Below, in pieces: positions 52,797-58,145 of a stretch of 64,000 nucleotides of DNA (the stretch's first letter is position 1; the number at the start of each line of letters is the position of its first letter). The stretch comes from Pseudomonas sp. FP2309. Its GTDB lineage: Bacteria; Pseudomonadota; Gammaproteobacteria; Pseudomonadales; Pseudomonadaceae. The position numbers and the translations under genes are program-made. Location: positions 1,798,001 to 1,862,000 of the forward strand of contig NZ_CP117439.1 in NCBI RefSeq assembly GCF_030687575.1, read 5' to 3'. The notes beneath the pieces are model-generated. The model had not been told where the DNA came from. It did no database searches and saw only the letters and a program-made list of their open reading frames with translations.

Positions 52797-53369
52797 ATGA
52801 AAACTGGTAAAGAACTGAAACCCGGTACAGTGATCCGTCTCGAAAACGACCCTTGGCTGGTTCAGAAAGCTGAGTTCACCAAGTCTGGTCGTAACAGCGC
52901 AATCATGAAGACCAAGCTGAAGAACCTGCTGACCGGTTACAAGACCGAGATCGTCTACAGCGCCGATGACAAACTGGACGACGTGATCCTCGACCGCAAA
53001 GAAGCGACCCTGTCGTTCATCAGCGGCGACACCTACACGTTCATGGACACCACCGACTACACCATGTACGAGCTGAACGCTGAAGACATCGAAGCCGTTC
53101 TGCCATTCGTGGAAGAAGGCATGGACGACGTCTGCGAAGCCATCTTCTTCGAAGAGCGTCTGGTTTCCGTAGAGCTGCCGACCACTATCGTGCGTAAGGT
53201 TGCCTACACCGAAGGTTCCGCTCGCGGTGACACGTCGGGCAAAGTGATGAAGCCTGCCAAGCTGGCTAACGGTACCGAACTGCAAGTGGCCGATTTCATC
53301 GAAATCGACGACCTGATCGAAATCGACACCCGCGAAGGTGGTTCGTACAAAGGTCGCGCCAAGAAGTAA
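52797..53369 (+). CDS. efp: Translation elongation factor EF-P
   Basis: The 190-residue protein reads [19 protein letters not shown], with the modification loop [11 protein letters not shown] and Arg32 in the place taken by Lys in E. coli. This marks it as the rhamnosylated type. It resolves ribosome stalling at polyproline. It is paired with the EarP gene directly upstream; the terminator after it is clear. Confidence 0.97.
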
Positions 53370-53421
53370 TTCTGGCCGCTGCCCTGAAGGCGTGGTTCCC
53401 GCGCCTCGGGCTGCACAAGAG

Positions 53422-53452
53422 TCCGGCGTCTGAAAAGACGCCGGATTTTTTT
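53422..53452 (+). terminator. Rho-independent terminator of efp
   Basis: TCCGGCGTCT (53422-53431) pairs with AGACGCCGGA (53436-53445) around GAAA, followed by seven T residues (53446-53452). Confidence 0.93.
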
Positions 53453-53600
53453 CGCCGTTTTTTTGGCCCTCTCGTCGGCCTCAGTGCATCTTTTCAATAC
53501 TCGACTATGGTTAGTGGCGAACTGCCTTCACTCGCAGCAGTGAAGGGCAGGCCCCCGCTCGCTCCGGTCCGTGCCGGTGAGTTAGCCATAAGGAAGAATA

Positions 53601-54146
53601 ATGATGAGCATTGAAGCTGATCCGACGCCGCACGCCTTCGATAAAGCCGATCAAGCCCCCGAACGGCTCACCGAAATGTTTGTAGGAGGCCAGGAGAAAC
53701 GTATCCAACTCGGCCAGTGCCCGGCCGAGCGCGCGGTGTTTCGCAAGCTGCATGGCGTGGCCAGTGCCCGTCTGGTGATGGAAAAGAACATCCCGGCCAA
53801 GCTGAAAGTGGGGGTATTCGCCCACGACAGCCTTGACGCCTGGGTCCGTTTTTCCAGCGATACCACACCCACCTCACCGGACCTGGGCAGCACTGTCGGG
53901 ATCGGCATCAAGTTGTTTGGCGTCCCTGGCCCCAAGGCCCTGGGTGACGAGGGCGATACCGCCGATTTCATCATGCAGAATTTTCCGATCTTCTTTGTCG
54001 ACAACGCCAAGGAAATGGTCGAGTTCACCTACGCCGGTACCGTGCTCAAGGACTACCCCGGCTACCTGAAAAAACACCCCAAGACCCACGACATCCTTAA
54101 CCGCATGGGCGACAAGGTCGAAGGCAGCGTACTGACCACTCAGTAA
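53601..54146 (+). CDS. Catalase-like domain, N-terminal part, cut by in-frame TAA
   Basis: This 181-residue open frame has the heme catalase-like fold of the y4iL-like type: FRKLHGVASARLVM with the distal His, then VFAHDSLDAWVRFSSDTTP, GIGIKLFGVPG, TADFIMQNFPIFFV. It stops at TAA (54144-54146), yet the same frame continues for 2,400 bases with the rest of this domain (WAILPFHSGSKRYVKF follows directly). In catalases the position before WAILPF is usually Tyr, so TAC or TAT to TAA is the simplest change. The heme-ligand Tyr lies downstream of the stop, so this fragment alone cannot be a working catalase. AGGAAG precedes the start. Confidence 0.8.
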   Translation: MMSIEADPTPHAFDKADQAPERLTEMFVGGQEKRIQLGQCPAERAVFRKLHGVASARLVMEKNIPAKLKVGVFAHDSLDAWVRFSSDTTPTSPDLGSTVGIGIKLFGVPGPKALGDEGDTADFIMQNFPIFFVDNAKEMVEFTYAGTVLKDYPGYLKKHPKTHDILNRMGDKVEGSVLTTQ

Positions 54147-54302
54147 TGGGCCATTCTGCCGTTTCATTCGGGAAGCAAACGCTACGTCAAATTTCGCCTC
54201 GACCCCGAAACCCCGCCGGAAAACGTCCCCAACAACGAAACCGATTACCTGGGCGTCGATCTATGCCGTCGCCTTGCGCAGCGCGAATATAAATTCCGTT
54301 TC

Positions 54303-56567
54303 ATGGTGCAGTTGCGCACCGATGCGCAGAGCATGCCGCTTGATGAGGCAACCGTTGAGTGGCCGGAAAGCGAAAGCCCGTTTGTGCATGTCGCCACACT
54401 GACCCTGTCGCAACAGGATGTGGCCCAGCGTGGCCAGGCGGAATACGGGCAAGGGCTGGCCTTTAACATTTGGCGCCTGCCCCCGGAGCAGGCACCGGTG
54501 GGCTCGATCGCCGAAGCCCGCAAAGTCGTCTACGCCGCAGGCGCGCGCGCGCGGCATGAAGCCAATGGCCAGGGTTTGCAGGATCCACCTCAAGCCCGTC
54601 CGGCGGCGTGCCCTTACTCCGCCACCCAATCCTCGATCAGCGGCTTGGGCGAGGTGGGCGCCAAGGATCAATGCATCGTCAAAGCGGTGATCTACCCCTC
54701 AATCGGCGTGGCGCGCGTCGGTTCAAGCGAGTCGGAGTGGTTTGTGGGCCCTGAAGTGTGTGATCCGCCGCATCACGCCGCCGGTTTTTATCGCGATTCA
54801 AAGAAACAACTCAAGCGCCAGGCCGCGCGCTTTCGGGTGTATGGCGTAAACGTGCTGGGCGACATTGTGCGTGAACTCACCCCGGATAACGCAAAGATCC
54901 GCTGGCAGGTGCAATTGGCCAACACCAAGTCAGCCTGGTATGGCTTCCAGCTTGCGTTGGATATTCCGGAGGCTGCATCGGCGCCACCAACGACACTGCG
55001 CAATGCCGGCATTGCCGACCGCACACAGTTAGCCATTACTCCCAAGGCGAAGGTGGTCAGTGGCAAGAATGCCAAGCCCAAGAAGTTCGACGATGGCCGT
55101 TTCATGGGCAAGCCGGTGTACCTGGGCGAAACATTTACCGATGAACAGGGCCGCCTGATCGTGCTGGGGGGCCATGGTGCCGCAGGCGCTTGCGACGATA
55201 GCCGCGCGATCACGTTCGCGAACAACGAGGGTTGGTACGACGATACGTCGGACGGGCCGGTCAATGCCGAGGTGATCTACGACGGGCAGCCCCTGTTGGT
55301 TGACCCCGCGTGGGTTATCGTCGGCCCGCCTAACTATGGGCCACAACGCAAGTCGGTGCGCACCATGTGGGACTTGATGCGCGATGTCGCCATCAAGGCT
55401 GGTACGTTGCCGATGCCGATGCGTCCCAGCTTCACGTTCGACATATTGCCGATTTTCGAACGGCTGGCCGGCCTGCAATGGGTGAATGCCGGCTTCGCAT
55501 CCGGGTTTGGCTGGAAGGGCGTAAATGATCTGACCAGCGCGCAAGCGTTGGCGCGCTTGTCGAGTGCCAGCCCGGTGTATGTCGAACTGCGGCGCACCAT
55601 TGCCAACCAGTTCCGTAATGATGCCGTGGACAGTTGGTCGCCCAAGCCCTGGCCATGGCTGTACGGTGACGCCATGGATGTGCCGGCAGCCAAGACACCT
55701 CGACAAAACGCCTCGCTCAGTGACACGCAGTTGGCCATGTTGGCGGAGTGGGCACGGGGCAATTTCGTGGAGGACTATGCTGCCGATCGCGTCGCGCCGC
55801 GCAGCCTCGATGAGGTGCCGCTGGCCCTGCAAGGCGATACGCTGACCAAGGCGGCGCTGGACTTTTGCCTGGCCGACGCTTTCCACCCCGGTTGTGAAAT
55901 GACCTGGCCCGTGCGCACCGCCACGATGTACATGGCGCCGTTTCGCTTTGCCCATGCCCTGGACGGCTGGATTGCCCCGGCCTTGGGCGAGGTCATCACG
56001 TACGCCGCGATCAGCCTGACCAACGGCCCGCTCTGTGGTCAGCAGGCCGGTGGTCTGACCCGCTGGATGGCGGTGCCATGGCAAACCGACTCGGCCAGCT
56101 GCCGTTCGGGCTATGACAAAAACTATGACCCCTACGTGCCCTCGTTCTGGCCGGCGCGGGTGCCTAATCAGGTATTGACCCGGCAGAACTACGACGTTGT
56201 CATGGACGAAAAAAAGCCCCTCGGCGAGCGCCTGGCTGCCTTCGCCAACCGGGCCTCCTGGATCGAGCCTTTGGGGGCCACCAGCTACACCGACCAGATC
56301 AACAATATGATTCACCACTTCGATCACCTGGGGGTCGTAGAGGTGCACGCCGGGCCCAGCGACCGCGAGCATTTCCCGGCCCACATTGAGGTGGAGGACC
56401 AACACGTGCCGATCAAGGATATGCCCAACCCGACCGCCAGCCCGCATTCGGCCAGTCATGAGGCGCTGCGTTTGCAGGTCGGTGCCCTGGCGGGGCCGCG
56501 TGCAGAATCGGTGGACATCATGACCATCGAGAAGGCCCAGCGTTTTCCACGGGGCCTGCCCGGCTGA
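54303..56567 (+). CDS. LodA-type quinoprotein amino-acid oxidase with C-terminal part of the catalase-like domain
   Basis: This part is in the same frame as the preceding fragment; a plausible own start is lacking (ATG at 54303 has no ribosome site). Residues 1-95 complete the catalase-like domain, with EARKVVYAAG holding the heme-binding Tyr (R-x3-Y). From about residue 124 a full LodA/GoxA domain follows: VIYPSIGVARVGSSE, LGGHGAAGACDD, GWYDDTSDGPVNAEV and the cofactor region FHPGCEMTWP plus TRWMAVPWQTDSASCRSGYD. In this family the Cys and one of the Trp residues form cysteine tryptophylquinone. The enzyme makes H2O2 from an amino acid; a catalase fused to it would remove it. Confidence 0.82.
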   Translation: MVQLRTDAQSMPLDEATVEWPESESPFVHVATLTLSQQDVAQRGQAEYGQGLAFNIWRLPPEQAPVGSIAEARKVVYAAGARARHEANGQGLQDPPQARPAACPYSATQSSISGLGEVGAKDQCIVKAVIYPSIGVARVGSSESEWFVGPEVCDPPHHAAGFYRDSKKQLKRQAARFRVYGVNVLGDIVRELTPDNAKIRWQVQLANTKSAWYGFQLALDIPEAASAPPTTLRNAGIADRTQLAITPKAKVVSGKNAKPKKFDDGRFMGKPVYLGETFTDEQGRLIVLGGHGAAGACDDSRAITFANNEGWYDDTSDGPVNAEVIYDGQPLLVDPAWVIVGPPNYGPQRKSVRTMWDLMRDVAIKAGTLPMPMRPSFTFDILPIFERLAGLQWVNAGFASGFGWKGVNDLTSAQALARLSSASPVYVELRRTIANQFRNDAVDSWSPKPWPWLYGDAMDVPAAKTPRQNASLSDTQLAMLAEWARGNFVEDYAADRVAPRSLDEVPLALQGDTLTKAALDFCLADAFHPGCEMTWPVRTATMYMAPFRFAHALDGWIAPALGEVITYAAISLTNGPLCGQQAGGLTRWMAVPWQTDSASCRSGYDKNYDPYVPSFWPARVPNQVLTRQNYDVVMDEKKPLGERLAAFANRASWIEPLGATSYTDQINNMIHHFDHLGVVEVHAGPSDREHFPAHIEVEDQHVPIKDMPNPTASPHSASHEALRLQVGALAGPRAESVDIMTIEKAQRFPRGLPG

Positions 56568-57679
56568 TGGCATTGGCGGCCGGCGTGCATGCCGATGTGG
56601 TAGTGCTGGGCAGTGGTCCCGCAGCGTGTTCGCTGGCGCTGAACCTGGCGCCGTTTTGTCATGTCTTGATGGTGGACAAGGGCGACGGGGAGGGCGCGAG
56701 TGTGGGTGAGTCGCTGCCCGCTGCGGCGGGGCGGTTGTTTCGGGACATGGGCTTGCTGGAAGCGTTTTTGCAGCAGAACCATGCCCCGTGTCACGCCAGC
56801 CGTGGCGCGTGGGGCGGCGCCCGGATGTGGGAGCAGCACGCCATGGGCAATTTGGACGGCCATGGTTGGCACCTCGACCGCAGGCTGTTTGACGCGTGGT
56901 TGCGCCAGGTCGCCCAGTCGCGCGGGGCAGGGGCGTTGACGCACACACGGCTGGTGTCTGTGCGCAGTCTTGCCGGTGAGATGCCGTGGCACCTCGAACT
57001 GCAACGCGGCGATCAGCGGCTGACGCTGAGTGCACGTTTTGTGGTTGATGCCAGTGGGCGCAGCAGCGCGTTTGCCAGGCAACTGGGATACAAGCGCAAG
57101 GCCAGGGACAAGCTGGTGTGTGGCTGGTTATTCGGGAGGGACGGTTGCGCGGGCGGTATCAGTGAATTGCACGCCGAAGCGCAGGGCTGGTGGTACACGT
57201 CGCCCTTGCCGAATGGCCGTCGCTTGCTGTCCTTTTACACCGACGCCGATTTGGACGCTGCCGCTTCTGCGCATCACCCCGAGAGGCTGCTCACGCGTGT
57301 ACAGCATGTGCCGGAACTGAGTCGCACATTGGCGGCATACGGGTTCAGCGCCACTGGGTCCGTTGGGTTTTGTGCGGCGCATGGGGCAGCGTTGGAACAG
57401 GCCACAGGCACAGGGTGGCTGGCGGTAGGCGACGCGGCGTTGTCGTTTGATCCTTTGTCTGCGCAGGGTTTGTTCAATGCGCTCTACACCGGGCTGGCCG
57501 GTGCCGAGGCGATTCATGCTCAGTTAGCGGGCGATGGTGCCGCCGCTGGGCGTTACCAGGCTGAGCTGGACCGCATTGAGGCGGCTTATTCGGCCCATTT
57601 GCGCGGCTGGTATGAAGAGGAGCGCCGCTGGCCGGATCAAGCGTTTTGGCAACGACGGCAGGGCATATCGCAGGTATGA
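56567..57679 (+). CDS. LodB-like FAD-dependent flavoprotein
   Basis: The 370-residue protein has the FAD-binding GxGxxA motif VVVLGSGPAACSLAL (about residues 11-25), then SVGESLPAAAGRLF, VDASGRSSAFARQLG and GDAALSFDPLSAQGLFNAL of the tryptophan-halogenase-like flavoproteins. LodB/GoxB proteins build the tryptophylquinone in LodA/GoxA. Its ATG overlaps the LodA stop by one base (TGATG), so translation is coupled. The substrate is not readable. Intact, with no break. Confidence 0.87.
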   Translation: MALAAGVHADVVVLGSGPAACSLALNLAPFCHVLMVDKGDGEGASVGESLPAAAGRLFRDMGLLEAFLQQNHAPCHASRGAWGGARMWEQHAMGNLDGHGWHLDRRLFDAWLRQVAQSRGAGALTHTRLVSVRSLAGEMPWHLELQRGDQRLTLSARFVVDASGRSSAFARQLGYKRKARDKLVCGWLFGRDGCAGGISELHAEAQGWWYTSPLPNGRRLLSFYTDADLDAAASAHHPERLLTRVQHVPELSRTLAAYGFSATGSVGFCAAHGAALEQATGTGWLAVGDAALSFDPLSAQGLFNALYTGLAGAEAIHAQLAGDGAAAGRYQAELDRIEAAYSAHLRGWYEEERRWPDQAFWQRRQGISQV

Positions 57680-57680
57680 A

Positions 57681-57715
57681 AAATCCGGAATCCTCATCAG
57701 ATTCCGGATTTTTTT
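57681..57715. terminator. Bidirectional rho-independent terminator between LodB and ohr
   Basis: AAATCCGGAATC (57681-57692) pairs perfectly with GATTCCGGATTT (57700-57711) around 7 bases, with T residues after it on the plus strand (to 57715) and complementary A residues before it at 57679-57683 for the minus strand. Confidence 0.93.
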
Positions 57716-57725
57716 GGCCTGTAAA

Positions 57726-58145
57726 TCAGACCGTCACATGCAGGCGTACATCGACATTGCCGCGGGTGGCATTGGAGTACGGGCAGACTTGGTGAGCCGC
57801 GTCGACCAGGCTTTGTGCGTCATCCTGGGCCAGGCCGGGCAGGCTGATGTGCAGGTCGATATCCAGACCGAAACCGCCGGGGATCTGGCCGATGCCGACG
57901 TGAGCGGTGATCGAGGCGTCATCCGGGATTTTGCGTTTGGTCTGGCTGGCGACGAATTTCAGCGCGCCGATAAAACAGGCCGAGTAACCGGCGGCGAACA
58001 GTTGTTCCGGGTTGGTGGCCTGGCCACCGGCGCCGCCCAATTCTTTTGGCGTGGACAGTTTGACGTCGAGGATGTTGTCGCTGGAAACAGCGCGACCATC
58101 ACGGCCGCCGGTGGCGGTGGCTACTGCGGTATAGAGCGTTTGCAT
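57726..58145 (-). CDS. ohr: Ohr, organic hydroperoxide reductase
   Basis: The 139-residue product contains Cys57 (GYSACF) and Cys121 (QVCPYS), the two catalytic thiols of Ohr, and the Arg/Glu pair expected for the peroxide pocket (TATGGRDGRAV, PEQLFAAG). It reduces organic and lipid hydroperoxides with lipoyl-dependent recycling. It is preceded on the same strand by ohrR with palindromic sites between them. Confidence 0.95.
   Translation of the reverse strand: MQTLYTAVATATGGRDGRAVSSDNILDVKLSTPKELGGAGGQATNPEQLFAAGYSACFIGALKFVASQTKRKIPDDASITAHVGIGQIPGGFGLDIDLHISLPGLAQDDAQSLVDAAHQVCPYSNATRGNVDVRLHVTV

Follow-up and report, generated by a model that had tools for sequence, protein, structure and literature searches.

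The window analysed here is a stretch of 64,000 nucleotides from Pseudomonas sp. FP2309 (contig NZ_CP117439.1, positions 1,798,001 to 1,862,000). Near its right-hand end lies a pair of coupled genes: a frame that joins a catalase-like heme domain to a LodA/GoxA-like oxidase and is interrupted by one in-frame TAA, and a LodB-like gene. The oxidase is of the type that carries a cysteine tryptophylquinone (CTQ) cofactor. The features are as follows.

53575–53600, + strand: likely ribosome-binding region, with AAGGAAG directly upstream of the first ATG (from the sequence)
53601–54143, + strand: N-terminal half of the catalase-like heme domain, codons 1–181; codon 51 encodes the expected distal His and codon 127 the expected distal Asn
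54144–54146, + strand: in-frame TAA at codon 182, interrupting the fusion frame (from the sequence)
54147–54605, + strand: C-terminal part of the catalase-like domain, codons 183–335, with RxxxY (Arg 307, Tyr 311) as the expected heme-iron ligand motif; open, severed from its start
54672–56564, + strand: LodA/GoxA-like CTQ oxidase domain, approximately codons 358–988, in which Asp 830, Cys 834 and Trp 850 match the GoxA CTQ-site residues (PF17990, PF18417 and structures)
56567–57679, + strand: LodB/GoxB-like flavoprotein of 370 residues, the expected CTQ maturase, intact; one-base overlap with the fusion stop (TGATG)

Positions 53601–56567 form a single frame of 988 codons before the final stop, and the TAA at codon 182 is the only stop inside it. 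The part up to 54146 encodes 181 residues and is in register with the part that runs on to 56567. The first ATG downstream of the TAA is at 54303, from which an open reading frame (ORF) of 754 residues extends, and similarity to the P. cichorii copy starts upstream of the frame, at 53574. Because both sides of the stop align continuously to uninterrupted proteins, the interrupted frame is not a chance arrangement. An earlier, sequence-only reading of this locus had described two ORFs separated by this TAA alone, a full frame of about 988 residues and a LodB-type gene overlapping it by one base. The frame analysis agrees on each point, and the domain borders proposed there are close to those in a model of an intact relative, which has a catalase fold at approximately residues 16–332 and an oxidase fold at 360–937.

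The best match in the protein database, P0001, has 988 residues and represents a cluster of 12 member sequences. Besides the stop, only codons 56, 305, 342 and 659 distinguish it from the window, four of the 987 other residues, and neither of the two window pieces is contained exactly in it. Judged by its sequence, P0001 is therefore a different, uninterrupted allele from the same or a very close species.

To place the window copy among its relatives, we scanned 84,980 species, each represented by a single genome, using the part downstream of the stop as the query; 305 relatives were found and the best 80 were kept. An ORF matching both the catalase-like and the LodA-like parts is present in 75 of these 80 loci and is open through both parts in 74, two of which (L044 and L062) run off their contigs. 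The remaining fusion, at L105 (5516–8253, Flavobacterium tiangeerense), is frameshifted at about residue 80 of its catalase part, through either a mutation or a sequencing error. Two further loci (L043 and L069) start at the edge of a contig, and at L085, L089 and L092 the LodA gene stands alone with no catalase part. None of the best 80 loci was seen to be cut at the codon-182 column, and since the query lies downstream of the stop this is the less biased measure of stops at that position. In total, 77 fusion ORFs were collected among the first 111 loci, namely these 75 together with two from the genus search: L013, which is frameshifted within its LodA part, and L003, whose protein is identical to that of L035. 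The fusion occurs in Pseudomonadota, Bacteroidota, Myxococcota, Acidobacteriota, Cyanobacteriota and Actinomycetota. In the protein database, 3,205 relatives were found at E ≤ 1e-30 among 7,996 candidates scored, and 117 of the 120 relatives listed are 920–1,090 residues long.

The codon-182 column holds a sense residue in all 77 fusion ORFs and in 119 of the 120 listed proteins, the other having a gap, although both sets were selected as open frames and so cannot show how rare a stop or how frequent an interruption is. The residue expected here by the sequence-only reading was Tyr, and it is indeed found in 75 of the 77 fusion ORFs and 117 of the 120 listed proteins.

The catalase fold is seen in the intact relative, and the distal His, the distal Asn and the proximal Arg-x-x-x-Tyr are located by alignment. 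The assignment of His 51 and Asn 127 as the distal pair and of Tyr 311 as the proximal ligand follows from the match to the catalase fold together with known catalase chemistry. His 51 is present in 76 of the 77 fusion ORFs and 116 of the 120 listed proteins, the remainder being gaps, while Arg 307 and Tyr 311 are both present in every member of the two sets (77/77 and 120/120). Asn 127 is kept in 75/77 and 114/120; it is replaced by Ala in L047, L048 and P0119, by Asp in P0027 and P0052 and by Ser in P0098, with gaps in P0058 and P0109. We note that L047, L048 and P0119 have QAASRFF in place of the QNFPIFF of the window, and these Asn-replaced fusions may form a subgroup with altered heme chemistry. 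The Pfam catalase family PF00199 matches 27 of 37 relatives at E ≤ 0.1 (best 3.9e-9), the P. cichorii copy scoring 24.2 against a cut-off of 25; the two window pieces gave no catalase profile match in Pfam at E 0.001.

Both oxidase families of Pfam match downstream of the stop, with 269.9 bits for PF17990 (LodA_N; cut-off 26.3) and 130.8 bits for PF18417 (LodA_C; cut-off 25). Against the NCBIfam profiles the region scores 415.6 bits with NF038173 (GoxA glycine oxidase; equivalog cut-off 750) and 159.7 bits with NF038172 (LodA lysine 6-oxidase; equivalog cut-off 600). By profile score the oxidase is thus closer to GoxA than to LodA, yet far under either equivalog cut-off, and the substrate of GoxA or LodA is therefore not transferable to it. 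In the alignment with GoxA (PDB entry 6byw), Cys 834, Trp 850 and Asp 830 of the window correspond to Cys 682, Trp 697 and Asp 678, the residues that form or serve the CTQ there. The statement made for C516 and W581 of LodA by Campillo-Brocal et al. (BMC Genomics 2015, PMC4417212) agrees with this role. The three residues are kept in 76 of the 77 fusion ORFs (the gap belongs to the frameshifted L013), in all 120 listed proteins and in all 20 non-fusion rows of the alignment; among the latter are L069, from a contig edge, and the second L013 piece, while L001 and L043 are in neither group. The predicted identities of the catalase-like domain and of the LodA/GoxA-like oxidase are confirmed by profiles, by solved structures and by the model of the intact relative.

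A second cysteine of the oxidase, Cys 765 (position 55893, in the motif HPGC), sits three residues after the His aligned to GoxA His 583. It was considered as the CTQ cysteine and rejected, as its column is Val in PlGoxA and the true CTQ cysteine lies in D-x-x-x-C (Cys 834). Cys 765 is missing from some Pseudomonas LodA-like ORFs, and the idea that these are paralogues lacking CTQ was dropped because Cys 834 is conserved in every row that has letters there. Cys 765 is found in 76/77 fusion ORFs (one gap), 120/120 listed proteins and 14/20 non-fusion rows, with Val in GoxA, and may mark a different active site.

Within the genus, the catalase and LodA pair occurs in at least four of 298 Pseudomonas genomes (that of the window, G071, G149 and G108), a lower bound given that at most three candidates per genome were scored. 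Of these four, only G071 has it as one open frame: the window copy has the stop, the G108 copy (L113:3054–5880) has a frameshift, which falls inside the LodA domain, and G149 carries two genes. In G149 (L112:3800–6750), a pair that surfaced on reading a longer stretch, the catalase-like ORF stops within the linker, and the LodA-like ORF, in the same frame, has its own Met with AAGGA eight bases upstream. This arrangement could be either a fission or a state that preceded fusion. In a quick tree the LodA part of G149 sits on a long branch among stand-alone LodA genes of Pseudomonas, and the stand-alone LodA-like ORFs L004, L085, L089 and L092 nest inside the fusion clade, which suggests that the catalase-like domain was lost in some lineages. 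The tree has long branches, leaves out P0001–P0120 and both pieces of L013, and its rows were chosen by similarity to the window, which biases it towards clustering of the fusions. We also searched for detached catalase genes near 21 loci (L004–L019, L043, L069, L085, L089 and L092), with the catalase portion of the L035 protein as query and a threshold of E 1e-4; only the fusion pieces of L013 and L043 were matched, and as the flanks of L004–L019 are short (3.8–4.9 kb in all for L004, L008, L014 and L019) a gene farther away would escape this search.

The gene that follows the fusion matches Pfam families of flavin adenine dinucleotide (FAD)-dependent oxidoreductases, and it scores 231.1 bits with NF038174 and 213.1 bits with NF038171, the NCBIfam profiles for GoxB/LodB, both under the equivalog cut-off of 400. 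Another resemblance is to QhpG (PDB entry 7ctq), which serves a different CTQ enzyme as peptidyl tryptophan dihydroxylase. Of the 77 fusion loci, 72 have a LodB-like ORF on the strand of the fusion; in the other five the contig stops where the fusion ends or no more than ten bases away. There is no other general neighbour: among ORFs of at least 130 residues besides the fusion and LodB, no group occurs in more than 12 of the 77 loci, the two most frequent being restricted to Tenacibaculum and its kin.

The gene upstream of the operon is efp and the gene downstream encodes an Ohr-type peroxiredoxin; an ORF downstream is taken as a MarR-type regulator on a reading of its sequence alone. A promoter scan at the locus found none. 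The operon shares 73–75% DNA identity with those of P. cichorii, P. morbosilactucae and P. chlororaphis, in which its flanks have no match at E 1e-10. At the efp site it is absent from all seven Pseudomonas genomes examined, which were picked for high efp identity from 12 other genomes with a match. In six of these seven ohr follows efp, after approximately 150 bases in L132 and 1.1–1.2 kb in the other five, compared with approximately 4.4 kb here; in L136 there is no ohr within the stretch fetched around efp. Given this absence, the unmatched flanks and the variable spacing, the operon appears to be an accessory insertion between efp and ohr, in an interval that is variable. This interval, which spans 53370–57725 in the window, may gain and lose cargo. 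Foreign base composition was considered and rejected, the guanine plus cytosine fraction per kilobase over 53000–58000 being 0.58–0.65 and matching that of the surroundings (0.57–0.66).

In our view, this is probably an accessory two-gene operon whose fusion gene has acquired a recent nonsense mutation at codon 182, so that a working oxidase is probably not made. The 181-residue first piece is without the heme-ligand Tyr and the second piece is without the distal His and Asn. The break would leave no oxidase and, through the lost coupling, little LodB. The ratio of nonsynonymous to synonymous substitution rates (dN/dS) relative to P. cichorii is 0.05–0.07 in the catalase half before the stop, the catalase half after it, the oxidase and LodB alike, and these low values indicate that the gene was constrained through most of its history. 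Both the near-identical intact allele and the absence of any further interruption suggest that the stop arose recently or is a base error. The sequence-only reading had advised looking for close relatives whose fusion is intact. Such relatives do exist in P0001 and in 74 of the best 80 loci; together with the single stop and the coupled LodB they sustain the proposal made there of a broken fusion, in which the stop may be a mutation or a read or assembly error. The finding named there as refuting, that all close relatives encode separate proteins and the second has its own ribosome site, was not seen, and only the distant Pseudomonas copy in G149 has that form.

Several observations weigh against this interpretation. 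The stop is known from the assembled sequence alone and a base error at 54144–54146 is possible. The dN/dS of the oxidase relative to P. morbosilactucae is higher, at 0.13, and the synonymous divergences (dS) of 1.2–3.2 are near saturation and reflect a separation older than the stop, so that dN/dS is silent on selection since the stop and cannot date it. For the heme domain, a fold match does not demonstrate activity, and the related Mycobacterium avium subsp. paratuberculosis protein in PDB entry 3e4w is known as a peroxidase rather than a catalase. The main rival is that the strain carries an intact gene and the stop arose as an error of sequencing or assembly, which we regard as possible but considerably less probable. 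A single lesion, a LodB gene open over its full length and a near-identical intact protein speak for such an error. On the other side, the four further amino-acid differences from P0001 show different alleles and hence real variation at the locus, and the genome is a single 5.66 Mb contig with 100% completeness, although neither point is decisive.

It is improbable that the locus makes two separate proteins, a short heme fragment and a re-initiated, working oxidase from 54303–56567. G149 does carry the pair as two genes and stand-alone LodA-like ORFs are nested in the fusion clade, but the stop here falls within the catalase fold and not in the linker. The ATG at 54303 is also inside that fold and has no ribosome-site-like sequence before it; one GTG, at 54498, has such a sequence and again lies inside the fold. 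The division of the heme residues between the two pieces and the almost identical intact fusion P0001 likewise argue against separate products. Programmed read-through or recoding of the TAA would account for a frame that is fully open beyond the stop and under past constraint, but with no relative among the best 80 loci seen to be cut at this column nothing conserved requires recoding there, although no search aimed at a recoding element was made, and we consider it very improbable indeed.

In intact copies the LodB protein, an FAD monooxygenase, would dihydroxylate the Trp and help to turn the Trp and Cys of the LodA domain into CTQ. The CTQ would oxidize the amino group of an amino acid with release of NH3, and its reoxidation by O2 would yield H2O2, which the fused heme domain could either disproportionate or spend on a second substrate before it escapes. 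The plainest reading is that the heme domain would remove H2O2 in cis. A more tentative suggestion, made by analogy and in our opinion rather unlikely, is that it is a peroxidase or peroxygenase that uses the CTQ-made H2O2 in cis on a second substrate and is not a detoxifier; in that case the clade of fusions would represent an oxidizing enzyme, driven by amino acids and fuelling itself, in at least six phyla. A literature search over openly licensed texts, mostly titles and abstract openings, found no work on the function of the fusion or on coupling through H2O2.

The sequence-only reading had regarded the fusion as an undescribed system, which does not hold. The 2015 survey (PMC4417212) states that the LodA-like proteins of larger size seem to have arisen by gene fusion, tabulates 21 with pfam00199 (its Table 3) and notes a match to cd08152, which is related to y4iL. 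All 21 are placed in group III, of which, to the knowledge of those authors, no protein had been characterized. The catalase–LodA architecture is thus not new, the window is an interrupted Pseudomonas copy of a described kind, and since the architecture has been in print since 2015 the discovery is a modest one. Even so, the fusion joins in one chain, across many phyla, an H2O2-producing oxidase to a heme domain able to destroy or exploit H2O2, and the LodA-like family has antimicrobial members according to PMC4417212 and PMC6316408. The window contributes an interrupted allele, with a near-identical intact sister that would lend itself to comparison.

The group III fusions have the same architecture and a similar size (963–1072 residues in the table). 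Three of the tabulated strains, Massilia timonae CCUG 45783 (L041), Oceanospirillum beijerinckii DSM 7166 (L073) and Tenacibaculum ovolyticum DSM 18103 (L098), are also in our set and share the clade of the window in the quick tree, which is not a rebuild of the published one. That table contains no Pseudomonas, and the window copy differs by its internal stop: the catalase and LodA parts stand in one frame in P0001 and relatives, whereas here the frame is cut at codon 182. A term search of the main text of a later LodA review (PMC4699246) found neither catalase nor group III nor fusion. GoxA (PDB entry 6byw) and LodA (PDB entries 3weu and 2ymw) have no catalase domain and, where aligned, show 27–31% identity. 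Among solved structures, the one closest to the heme domain is the 33 kDa catalase-related protein of M. avium subsp. paratuberculosis (PDB entries 3e4w and 3e4y), which is free-standing, with 20–21% identity. The coral allene oxide synthase–lipoxygenase (PDB entries 3dy5 and 1u5u), as described in PMC5617202, has a catalase-like heme domain fused before an oxygen-using enzyme that makes its peroxide substrate. Its link to the present fusion lies in the fold and profile matches of the heme domain, and it differs in being an animal enzyme with a lipoxygenase partner and a fatty-acid hydroperoxide substrate, the partner domains not being known as related; it nevertheless provides a precedent for a peroxide that is made and used in cis.
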